Below, one piece after another: positions 184 to 7,948 of a DNA stretch of 8,264 nucleotides. Source of the DNA: Candidatus Sulfotelmatobacter sp. GTDB lineage: Bacteria > Acidobacteriota > Terriglobia > Terriglobales > SbA1. The notes below the pieces were generated by a model, which worked only from the letters and a program-made list of their open reading frames with translations, was not told the origin of the DNA and made no database searches. Within the stretch, counting starts at the first letter, position 1. The number at the start of each line of letters is the position of its first letter. Made by a program: the position numbers and the translations under genes. The DNA is taken from assembly GCA_030151135.1 (NCBI GenBank), contig JASLEQ010000623.1, positions 1 to 8,264 of the forward strand, in the 5' to 3' direction.

Positions 184-281
184 TGGCGGAAGCGAGTGGG
201 GGTCGAACCCACCGGTGACAGGATTGCCTGCCACCCGCCGGTTTTGAAGACCGGGACGATCACCGGACCGCATGCGCTTCC
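184..281 (-). tRNA. selC: tRNA-Sec (anticodon TCA), selenocysteine tRNA
   Basis: Read on the minus strand, this 98-base sequence has the special shape of bacterial selenocysteine tRNA. The acceptor arm is GGAAGCG/CGCTTCC with an eighth C-T opposition that does not pair. The D stem has 6 bp (GCGGTC/GATCGT, two G-T pairs) closed by a CGGT tetraloop. The anticodon stem is CCGGT/ACCGG around the loop CTTCAAA, giving anticodon TCA. The long variable arm has 9 bp (GGTGGCAGG/CCTGTCACC) with a CAAT loop. The T arm is GTGGG-TTCGACC-CCCAC. The gene ends in discriminator G and an encoded CCA. The tRNA is charged with Ser, converted to Sec by SelA and delivered to UGA by SelB. It implies that the genome encodes selenoproteins, although none is visible here. 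The long variable arm and 6-bp D stem exclude an ordinary suppressor-type or Trp tRNA. Confidence 0.95.
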
Positions 282-2534: not shown

Positions 2535-2561
2535 AAAAAAGCGCAGACTCGCGCCCGCGCT
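2535..2561 (-). terminator. Intrinsic terminator of the peroxiredoxin gene
   Basis: Beginning 23 bases past the peroxiredoxin stop, the minus strand can fold a 9-bp stem (two G-T pairs) capped by a GCGA tetraloop (2540-2561). It is followed directly by a run of T (2540-2535). The position, GC-rich stem and T run fit a Rho-independent terminator. Confidence 0.75.
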
Positions 2562-2583: not shown

Positions 2584-3264
2584 TTATTTCGGCTGCGGCG
2601 CTGTCCTCAGATATGGCTTGATTGTCTTGAAGCCAGGAAATTTTTGCTGGGCCTCTTCGTTCGACACCGCCCCGGTAAGAATCACGTCGTCCCCCGATTT
2701 CCAATTCACCGGAGTGGCGACTTTATGCTTCGCCGTAAGTTGCATGGAATCGATCACCCGCAGGATCTCGTCGAAGTTGCGGCCGGTCGTCATCGGATAG
2801 CTGAGTTGTAGCTTGATCCGCTTGTCCGGACCGATGACAAAAACGGTCCGCACGGTCGCGTTATCGGCGGGCGTCCGGCCCTCGCACGTATCGCCTATGT
2901 CGCCTGGAAGCATTCCGTAGAGCTTTGCAACCTTGAGTTGCGGATCGCCGATCATCGGGTAGTTCACCGCGGCACCCTGCGTTTCTTCAATATCTTTCTC
3001 CCACTTTTCGTGGCTTGAAACTGGATCCACGCTCAGCCCAAGTATCTTCACGTTCCGCTTGGCGAACTCTGGCTGCAGTTTTGCCATGTATCCCAGCTCG
3101 GTTGTGCAAACAGGGGTAAAGTCTTTCGGGTGCGAAAACAGAATGGCCCAGCTATTCCCGATCCAATCGTGAAAATGAATCGTGCCCTGCGTAGTCTCCG
3201 CAGTAAAGTCGGGAGCGACGTCGTTAATCCTCGGGACACTATAGGTTTCGGTCGCGGTCGTCAT
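2584..3264 (-). CDS. 1-Cys peroxiredoxin (Prx6 family)
   Basis: The 226-residue product reduces hydrogen peroxide and organic peroxides in the cytoplasm through a Cys-sulfenic acid intermediate. The AhpC/TSA thioredoxin fold opens with NDVAPDFTAETTQGTIHFHDW (about residues 14-34). The active-site motif PKDFTPVC gives Thr50 and peroxidatic Cys53, and Arg139 in ATVRTVF is the matching catalytic Arg. The extended C-terminal domain (SYPMTTGRNFDEILRVIDSMQL, then TPVNWKSGDDVI and FPGFKTIKPYLR) and the length are typical of Prx6 rather than typical 2-Cys enzymes. A second Cys (127) occurs, but there is no C-terminal VCP motif. I chose the ATG at 3264 because GGAGG (3277-3273) precedes it by eight bases and the family's N-terminus starts there. 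The frame stays open to 3402, but that stretch covers the leader terminator. The gene has its own terminator and a long leader with an apparent Cys-codon attenuator. Confidence 0.93.
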   Translation of the reverse strand: MTTATETYSVPRINDVAPDFTAETTQGTIHFHDWIGNSWAILFSHPKDFTPVCTTELGYMAKLQPEFAKRNVKILGLSVDPVSSHEKWEKDIEETQGAAVNYPMIGDPQLKVAKLYGMLPGDIGDTCEGRTPADNATVRTVFVIGPDKRIKLQLSYPMTTGRNFDEILRVIDSMQLTAKHKVATPVNWKSGDDVILTGAVSNEEAQQKFPGFKTIKPYLRTAPQPK

Positions 3265-3341
3265 TGGTAGTTCCTCCGTAAATTCCATCGGTTGATGTTT
3301 TCGAAATCCGCCCGCTCCGGTGCCCAGCTCACAAAGCGGAT

Positions 3342-3374
3342 GAAAACAAAACCCACCCGCTTTGGCCGGGTGGG
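3342..3374 (-). terminator. Intrinsic terminator in the peroxiredoxin leader (attenuator)
   Basis: On the minus strand CCCACCCG pairs perfectly with CGGGTGGG (3374-3352) around a 7-base loop, followed immediately by TTTTGTTTT (3351-3343). It is the strongest-looking terminator in the window. It lies 78 bases upstream of the peroxiredoxin start and about 83 bases after the predicted transcription start. No other minus-strand gene lies between it and the promoter except the Cys-rich leader ORF, so it must act within the peroxiredoxin leader. Confidence 0.8.
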
Positions 3375-3409
3375 TGGGAGAAATTCGTTGAATGCTACCC
3401 ACACACCGG
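3366..3409 (-). promoter_or_regulatory. Alternative antiterminator pairing in the peroxiredoxin leader
   Basis: On the minus strand CCGGTGTGTGGG (3409-3398) can pair with CCCACCCACCCGG (3378-3366): 11 Watson-Crick pairs with one bulged C and one U-C mismatch. This would consume the whole 5' arm of the terminator. The upstream arm is exactly codons 17-20 of the leader ORF. A ribosome finishing the ORF would cover it, and one stalled at Cys codons 11-13 would leave it free. A competing upstream hairpin (CACCG 3443-3439 with CGGTG 3408-3404, and GCGA 3433-3430 with TCGC 3419-3416) places the Cys codons in its loop. No folding energies were calculated. Confidence 0.55.
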
Positions 3410-3457
3410 CATCGGGCGACAACAACACATCGCTCCGGCGGTGAATGAGTGAATCAT
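3395..3457 (-). CDS. Cys-rich 20-residue leader peptide of the peroxiredoxin gene
   Basis: The frame runs ATG to TAG on the minus strand and encodes 20 residues. Residues 10-14 read MCCCR (three consecutive TGT codons at 3427-3419) and residues 16-20 read MPVCG. The ATG lies seven bases from the end of the -10 hexamer, so the predicted mRNA begins at or next to the start codon. No Shine-Dalgarno is present, so translation would be leaderless. The stop is 20 bases before the leader terminator. Leaderless polycysteine ORFs that attenuate downstream genes in response to cysteine are known in mycobacteria. The same logic here would raise peroxiredoxin expression when charged Cys-tRNA is scarce. 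The peptide itself probably has no function. Chance occurrence is possible, but promoter, stop codon, terminator and alternative pairing all fit. Confidence 0.65.
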   Translation of the reverse strand: MIHSFTAGAMCCCRPMPVCG

Positions 3458-3463
3458 AGGTTT

Positions 3464-3492
3464 AGCATAGGCGGGACCGGCGGCAGTGTCAA
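3464..3492 (-). promoter_or_regulatory. Sigma70-type promoter for the peroxiredoxin leader
   Basis: On the minus strand a consensus -35, TTGACA (3492-3487), is followed by a 17-base spacer and TATGCT (3469-3464). The start is predicted at about 3457, the A of the leader ORF's ATG. It is the best promoter match in the window. It lies in the gap shared with the divergent PhzF-family gene. Confidence 0.7.

Positions 3493-7731: not shown

Positions 7732-7806
<75 letters not shown>

Positions 7807-7871: not shown

Positions 7872-7948
<77 letters not shown>

Follow-up and report, generated by a model that had tools for sequence, protein, structure and literature searches.

Organization of the peroxiredoxin locus

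The DNA analysed here, called the window, is a stretch of 8,264 nucleotides from Candidatus Sulfotelmatobacter sp. (Acidobacteriota, Terriglobia). Its minus strand carries a promoter, a leader open reading frame (ORF) with three consecutive Cys codons and a fourth one further on, an intrinsic terminator and a Prx6 gene; the sequence confirms the presence of all these parts, which were listed in the initial annotation. The features of the locus are as follows.

3464..3492 (-), sigma-70-type promoter TTGACA-17-TATGCT, with 10 of 12 consensus matches
3395..3457 (-), leader ORF of 20 codons encoding MIHSFTAGAMCCCRPMPVCG and then a stop, predicted to be leaderless (ORF reading and alignment)
3419..3427 (-), run of three Cys codons (codons 11-13), the predicted stall site (conserved in the class-A leaders described below)
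3397..3450 (-), protector (upstream) hairpin between the N-terminal codons and the ORF end (minimum free energy fold)
3394..3411 (-), antiterminator segment 2, which starts inside codon 16 and extends one base beyond the stop (complementarity to the terminator 5' arm)
3351..3375 (-), intrinsic terminator ACCCACCCG-GCCAAAG-CGGGTGGGT with 9 pairs and a loop of 7, and a T-rich tract reaching to about 3343
3273..3277 (-), Shine-Dalgarno sequence GGAGG of the peroxiredoxin gene (sequence)
2584..3264 (-), gene of a Prx6-type 1-Cys peroxiredoxin of 226 aa, with ATG at 3264 (AhpC-TSA and 1-cysPrx_C domains)
2540..2561 (-), terminator-like hairpin 3' of the peroxiredoxin gene (sequence scan)

The fourth Cys of the leader is encoded by codon 19, and TTTGTTTT directly follows the terminator hairpin. 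The terminator had been placed 20 bases after the leader stop, in good agreement with a 5' arm that starts 19 nt past it. Three promoter-like sites were found in the scanned 2.2-kb stretch against a mean of 1.3 in shuffled sequences. Since the leader ATG lies 6 nt past the -10 box, the transcript should begin at or next to the AUG, near 3457, and judging from this promoter spacing the leader message should be leaderless. The hairpin behind the peroxiredoxin gene suggests that prx6 forms a one-gene transcription unit.

The domain scan identified the gene product as a Prx6-type 1-Cys peroxiredoxin. Its best solved relatives by sequence are 7kuu, the top PDB match, and 6p0w; the record of 7kuu is titled only Alkyl hydroperoxide reductase C, and we take this protein to be LsfA of Pseudomonas aeruginosa. 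An Rfam scan of the window gave no match in 3343-3492 and elsewhere returned only tRNA genes and one microRNA match at chance level. Among the tRNA genes, tRNA-Cys(GCA) at 7872-7946 (+), about 4.4 kb from the Cys leader, adjoins tRNA-Gly(GCC) at 7732-7806. A tRNA-Sec gene was called by ARAGORN at 184-281 (-), with 68.8 bits for the Rfam tRNA-Sec family. Several AhpC/TSA family matches in related genomes contain one in-frame TGA, which suggests that selenocysteine-containing relatives exist.

Conservation of the leader among peroxiredoxin loci

Searching genomes with the window peroxiredoxin gave 516 confirmed stretches; the analysis was based on the 80 best loci. A Cys-rich leader together with a terminator was found in 43 of these best 80 loci, 41 by script and two (L027 and L032, the latter with a partly masked Cys run) by eye. 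The full leader is absent from the other 37, which include loci from Burkholderiales and their relatives, Bryobacterales and other Acidobacteriota; at two loci (L044 and L058) an apparently degenerate form of it is present. The leaders fall into two divergent forms. Class A resembles the window, with about 20 codons that mostly end in CG and a stop, while class B occurs in Granulicella, Edaphobacter, Terriglobus and their kin and often has an extended Cys run and a larger distance to the terminator. Two class-B leaders (L037 and L045) come from records titled as other phyla, which we suspect to be mislabelled metagenome bins. On a quick peroxiredoxin tree, 4 changes suffice to explain the leader label, compared with a mean of 27 after shuffling; hence the leader follows descent, with the tree silent on the direction of change. 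An absurdly long branch in this tree is that of L111, which belongs to a different peroxiredoxin subfamily.

The Cys codons are well conserved in the class-A alignment. Codon 12 encodes Cys in all 29 rows (27 TGT, 2 TGC), codon 13 in 28 of 29 (21 TGT, 7 TGC) and codon 11 in 22 of 29, and the stop codon is kept in every one of the 29. TGTGGGTAG is nearly invariant across the alignment. At codon 20, Gly is encoded by GGG in 26 of the 29 rows, a bias that we take to reflect RNA pairing. Altogether the leaders contain from two to ten Cys codons, and the run varies in length and spacing (CC, CCC, CVCCC, CCCCCCCC). Among the 30 class-A leaders, GTGTGGGT follows the first Cys run at a distance of 14 nt in 15, 11 nt in four, 8 nt in three and 17 nt in one, a spacing that always changes in steps of three; in the other seven the motif is altered.

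With up to ten Cys residues in a leader peptide, one could imagine that the nascent peptide itself senses metal or redox state, its thiols binding metal or forming disulfides and thereby arresting the ribosome. A nascent peptide of about 20 residues would stay inside the ribosome exit tunnel, however, and the variable Cys runs show no fixed CxxC pattern by eye. As the leader targets also include sulfur-assimilation genes (see below), we regard such a peptide sensor as highly improbable.

A strong promoter with the start codon 5-8 nt past the -10 box precedes 27 of 30 class-A leaders, a count favoured by the script, which chose the in-frame start with the best promoter. An equally strong promoter at this spacing was found for two of 12 class-B and two of 19 sulfite-reductase leaders (the latter are described below). 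The leader starts exchange ATG and GTG at a near-constant promoter spacing. At the other end of the leader, a CCCACC-like terminator 5' arm recurs in both peroxiredoxin leader classes and in many of the sulfite-reductase leaders. Nearly all leaders examined in these three groups have strong intrinsic terminators with T-tracts; L026 and L142 have weak ones, and in L029, where the leader has an early stop, a terminator is visible further on.

These data also bear on whether the ORF is incidental. A plain promoter-proximal terminator or a small-RNA gene with an incidental ORF, in which the Cys codons are by-products of RNA pairing, would account for the strong RNA constraint, namely the near invariance of TGTGGGTAG, the GGG preference at the Gly codon and the position of the last Cys codon within the pairing segment. 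The Cys run, however, lies outside the nearly invariant pairing core and is kept through TGT/TGC exchange. Class-B and sulfite-reductase leaders, which differ in nucleotide sequence, have a Cys run as well, and the exchange of ATG and GTG starts at near-constant promoter spacing likewise speaks against an incidental ORF. The incidental ORF is thus already disfavoured and retains very little probability.

The leader is not a general signature of antioxidant genes. Among 30 AhpC/TSA loci examined (of 98 places in 8 genomes), leader and terminator were called in five, comprising four Prx6 loci and one overlapping ORF (L188) that we take to be a chance occurrence; for AhpC/TSA genes other than Prx6 the count is therefore one of 26, namely L188.

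Genes preceded by the leader

In a family sample of 80 genomes, 45 Prx6 places were found in 44 genomes. The leader model matches 28 of the 80 genomes, once each. By coordinates, 19 of these 28 matches closely precede a Prx6 gene in the same orientation, and eight precede a second peroxiredoxin subfamily (L111, L286-L290, L292 and L293; five were scanned, all of them scoring over the NCBIfam PRK13189 cut-off, and three were assigned by eye). The last one precedes the gene of a rhodanese-domain protein (L291), so that all 28 matches stand before a peroxiredoxin or a rhodanese-domain (sulfurtransferase-like) gene. Of the 45 Prx6 places, 30 were examined for the leader itself. Nineteen have the leader with a called terminator. 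Five others (L271-L273, L278 and L281) have a Cys-rich ORF for which no terminator was called, another five have no Cys-rich ORF, and L267 is ambiguous. At L289, where the leader precedes a PRK13189-type peroxiredoxin gene, the Cys run extends over eight consecutive codons (MTHMCCCCCCCCDRQPMCG), as long as that of L043.

Retention of the terminator with loss of the Cys codons had been named beforehand as the pattern that would speak against Cys-codon control. It was seen once, in L292, among the nine non-Prx6 matches. Two degenerate-looking loci of similar appearance (L044 and L272) keep CC, and their terminator is weak or gone.

A covariance model of class-A leaders was searched in 19 genomes with such peroxiredoxin loci. 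A match at E<=1 was obtained in 19 of 19, and the peroxiredoxin leader was the best match in 16. In the three exceptions the best match was a cysH leader (G015), an antisense match on the peroxiredoxin leader (G016) and L099 (G018). At L099 (1501-1629) a short ORF, MIRSTSIAVRCCCRLP, lies before a TonB/carboxypeptidase-like protein (assigned by eye) and has no good terminator. Over 151 genomes of the class the model gave 10 matches at 1e-4; a peroxiredoxin gene follows three of them and a sulfite/nitrite-reductase-like gene the other seven. The sole reductase gene of the seven to be domain-scanned (L112) has the NirA family as best match. Across the phylum, with strict filters, matches at 1e-5 were found in 3 of 396 genomes, and these are the three peroxiredoxin places of the 151-genome search. 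Weak matches at L119, L120, L122-L125 and L128-L130 were attributed to chance or to bare terminators, and four terminator-only matches (L100-L103) were dropped. The match at L126 is the known L072 leader, and L098 is an antisense match on the L054 leader.

Searching for this reductase at a threshold of 1e-60 across 20 genomes yielded 13 loci, distributed over 12 genomes. A Cys-rich leader ORF is present at 12 of these 13 sulfite-reductase-like loci, and the 13th lies at a contig end; 11 of the 12 also have a terminator scoring at least 20 on our own scale. In seven genomes a cysH gene of the same orientation follows the sulfite-reductase-like gene at a distance of about 2 kb, and one cysH (L097) is itself preceded by a Cys-rich leader. 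By the strict rule, leader and terminator were found together in two of 23 cysH/cysD loci. Cys-rich leader ORFs also stand before cysD-like genes in class-B genomes (L162, L169, L171, L172 and L179). The terminator of cysD leaders is mostly weak or absent, with none clear in L162, L169 and L179, and these leaders possibly represent another mode of control.

Such leaders raise the question of whether control after transcription initiation depends chiefly on Rho or on coupling to translation, as has been proposed for the Cys leaders of mycobacteria, and not on the intrinsic terminator. In the mycobacterial cys leaders, conserved terminator hairpins were reported to be missing (PMC1262725, in the part of the text available to us), and the three cysD leaders without a clear terminator fit the same picture. 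Strong intrinsic terminators followed by T-tracts, on the other hand, are found in the window and in almost every class-A, class-B and sulfite-reductase leader examined, which makes Rho or coupling an improbable main device here.

The leader is not a signature of all cysteine genes either, being found at none of 29 cysK/M and none of 10 cysS loci. For cysK/M, 30 of 44 listed places were examined and 29 were evaluable, L224 starting at a contig end. Leader and strong terminator were not found at three contig-end loci, L177, L214 and L224, where the upstream sequence comprises only 213, 323 and 3 bases, respectively. A short Cys-rich ORF (e.g. MKPADTIRCCMCCPSCW) occurs just before a ThiF/MoeB-like adenylyltransferase-rhodanese gene in 7 of 18 loci (L144, L145, L146, L148, L150, L152 and L153). 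It was not counted as a leader, as it has no clear terminator and sits in a gap between genes.

The range of target genes is relevant to the signal that such a leader might respond to. The same attenuator could act as a redox sensor if peroxide depletes reduced cysteine or disables the charging of Cys-tRNA, so that ribosome stalling induces a peroxidase. The sequence logic of this thiol-oxidation signal is identical to that of cysteine shortage, and 27 of the 28 family-sample matches precede peroxiredoxins of two subfamilies. Cys-rich leaders before sulfite reductase and cysH point instead to cysteine supply, and given this sulfur-gene context, cysteine or sulfur shortage is the likelier primary signal. 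Thiol oxidation in its place seems possible but rather unlikely.

Alternative RNA pairings

In the window, segment 3411-3394 can pair with 3381-3364 through 14 pairs at -21.1 kcal/mol (z -2.3), and 7 of 200 dinucleotide shuffles are as good. An earlier description of this duplex as 11 pairs between codons 17-20 and the terminator 5' arm captures its core fairly. The minimum free energy fold of the window holds the upstream hairpin 3450-3397. Its loop had been thought to contain the Cys codons, which is true of two of the three, the third lying in the stem.

The pairings were evaluated in 61 leaders, comprising 30 class-A and 12 class-B peroxiredoxin leaders and 19 sulfite-reductase leaders. 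Left out of these counts were L027, L029, L032 and L044 (unmatched by the script, early stop, masked bases and degenerate, respectively), and for L007, L024 and L072 the terminator position was set by motif. For each leader we computed how well the terminator 5' arm pairs with the sequence that follows the first Cys run, and a leader passed if at most 10 of 200 dinucleotide shuffles were as good. The antiterminator duplex passes in 24 of 30 class-A, 8 of 12 class-B and 10 of 19 sulfite-reductase leaders. For the upstream hairpin the corresponding numbers are 15 of 30 (including the window), 4 of 12 and 11 of 19.

The 3' edge of a ribosome lies about 12 nt past the first base of the A-site codon, and this footprint was assumed in modelling the effect of translation. 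With the modelled ribosome on the first Cys codon, the 5' arm is predicted to pair upstream (P>0.5) in all 30 class-A, all 12 class-B and all 19 sulfite-reductase leaders. With the ribosome at the stop it does so in 0 of 30, 1 of 12 and 0 of 19, a contrast that is partly built in because the stop state leaves little upstream RNA. When no ribosome is present, upstream pairing of the 5' arm persists (P>0.5) in 17 of 30 class-A leaders (0.77 in the window), which gives the protector hairpin no clear advantage in this state. At equilibrium the terminator is favoured in most of the stalled class-A leaders (median P 0.86), hence readthrough would have to rest on folding kinetics, as it does in known attenuators.

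Conservation of the pairing could not be read from covariation in the usual way. The initial annotation had looked to homologous upstream regions for a conserved Cys run, stop codon and alternative stems with covariation. The run, the stop and the complementarity are indeed kept; classical covariation is nearly absent, with a two-sided change in one of 11 predicted pairs, in the terminator, because the columns of the core hardly vary. Shuffle and partner-swap tests were used instead for this reason. On segment 2, a leader's own 5' arm pairs better on average than the arms of its group mates, with permutation p values of <0.0002 (class A), 0.046 (class B) and 0.0006 (sulfite reductase), and it exceeds the row mean in 25 of 30, 6 of 12 and 17 of 19 leaders, respectively. 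In the same test the upstream hairpin also prefers its own partner (p <0.0002, 0.0036 and <0.0002 in the same order); neither of these partner-swap results is freed from the effect of kinship. The bases just after the stop, tested against those just before the 5' arm, gave a negative result (p 0.37).

Proposed mechanism of regulation

In trp and his attenuators the control codons lie in a protector hairpin, and alternative 2:3 and 3:4 pairings decide over a terminator. The leader in the window has a conserved short ORF with a codon run for one amino acid, its translation being predicted, and an intrinsic terminator between this ORF and the gene. According to the computed folds, the ORF end pairs with the terminator 5' arm when the ribosome is on the control codons but not when it is at the stop. 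The parts match an attenuator of the trp/his type with Cys as the sensed residue. Two things set it apart, as the controlled gene lies outside the pathway of the sensed amino acid and initiation is predicted to be leaderless.

We conclude, with a probability of roughly 80%, that the leader is a cysteine-responsive, ribosome-mediated transcription attenuator that places the peroxiredoxin in a cysteine/sulfur-shortage regulon. Membership in this regulon is suggested by the same leader logic before sulfite reductase and cysH in relatives. From the observed parts, their conservation and complementarity and the identity of the target genes we infer a transcription start, translation, stalling, readthrough and a signal in the following sequence of events. 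RNA polymerase would begin transcription at the leader AUG or next to it, and the leaderless message would then be loaded with a ribosome. With ample Cys-tRNA(Cys), this ribosome would pass codons 11-13 to the stop and cover segment 2 (3411-3394), so that the terminator at 3375-3351 forms and prx6 stays off. When charged tRNA-Cys is scarce, the ribosome would wait on the Cys run with its leading edge short of segment 2; the free segment would then pair with the terminator 5' arm, and the polymerase would read on into prx6. If the leader is not translated, the upstream hairpin might hold segment 2, which would favour termination. A plausible reason for inducing the peroxiredoxin is that scarce cysteine may entail scarce low-molecular-weight thiols.

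Cys-codon attenuation of a 1-Cys peroxiredoxin, as first proposed for this locus, is thus supported by the joint retention of Cys run, stop, antiterminator and terminator in many relatives and by the occurrence of the same logic before sulfur-assimilation genes in related genomes.

Comparison with known systems

Polycysteine leaderless short ORFs of mycobacteria were described by Canestrari (2020). The targets of such mycobacterial leaders are reportedly sulfur genes. In the accessible portions of the respective reports, a small leaderless ORF with contiguous Cys codons controls downstream genes by cysteine availability (PMC9031893), and Cys-run leaders precede the mycobacterial cys operon (PMC1262725). 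The leaders described here share with these the small ORF, predicted to be leaderless from the promoter spacing in the window and in 27 of 30 class-A leaders, and its contiguous Cys codons. They differ in the intrinsic terminator and antiterminator, in the phylum and in the peroxiredoxin target. The hairpin-less attenuation of mycobacteria is not seen in window-type leaders, which have strong intrinsic terminators; the present system therefore works like the mycobacterial leaders without being a member of that group.

Another comparable leader is uORFC-8-2 before cysS of Rhodobacterales. The available text describes a first stem that contains tandem Cys codons and an intrinsic terminator behind it, and proposes ribosome-mediated attenuation (PMC8632094). 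Cys codons, the subsequent intrinsic terminator and the proposed ribosome-mediated attenuation are common to both. In uORFC-8-2, however, the target is cysteinyl-tRNA synthetase, the two Cys codons are at positions 14-15 and the phylum is another one, whereas the window leader precedes prx6 and none of the 10 cysS loci examined here has a leader.

With respect to the controlled enzyme, a precedent is LsfA of Pseudomonas aeruginosa, a 1-Cys peroxiredoxin of the Prx6 group raised by sulfur shortage. According to the portions of the reports at hand, lsfA was named for its induction by low sulfate (PMC4199769), and a 2025 study found LsfA induced >45-fold in sulfur starvation and called the reason for antioxidant induction in sulfur limitation largely unexplored (PMC12581299). 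OxyR was reported to bind its promoter, and the same portions of PMC4199769 and PMC12581299 describe no leader attenuator. A link between peroxiredoxin and sulfur therefore has a precedent by another mechanism. Within the open-licence literature, in the text available, we found neither a peroxiredoxin gene under a Cys attenuator nor any Cys attenuator from Acidobacteriota. A 2010 survey lists Acidobacteriota as a phylum with almost no predicted attenuators of assigned function (PMC2965389, from the part of the text available).

Implications

Attenuation by Cys leaders and sulfur-induced 1-Cys peroxiredoxins were both known already; a Cys attenuator on a peroxiredoxin, and in Acidobacteriota, appears to be new to the open-licence literature searched. 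On the favoured reading, an amino-acid attenuator would be aimed at an antioxidant enzyme and not at the pathway of the sensed amino acid, and peroxide defence would be joined to cysteine supply by a cis-acting device, independently of the Pseudomonas example. The occurrence of the same leader before two peroxiredoxin subfamilies suggests repeated selection for a link between peroxiredoxin and cysteine. More tentatively, and with the odds against it, the ribosome stalled on the Cys run may serve in Terriglobia as a direct sensor of peroxide or thiol oxidation that induces two peroxiredoxin subfamilies together with sulfur-assimilation genes. If this is true, a leader RNA would do what OxyR or PerR do with protein.
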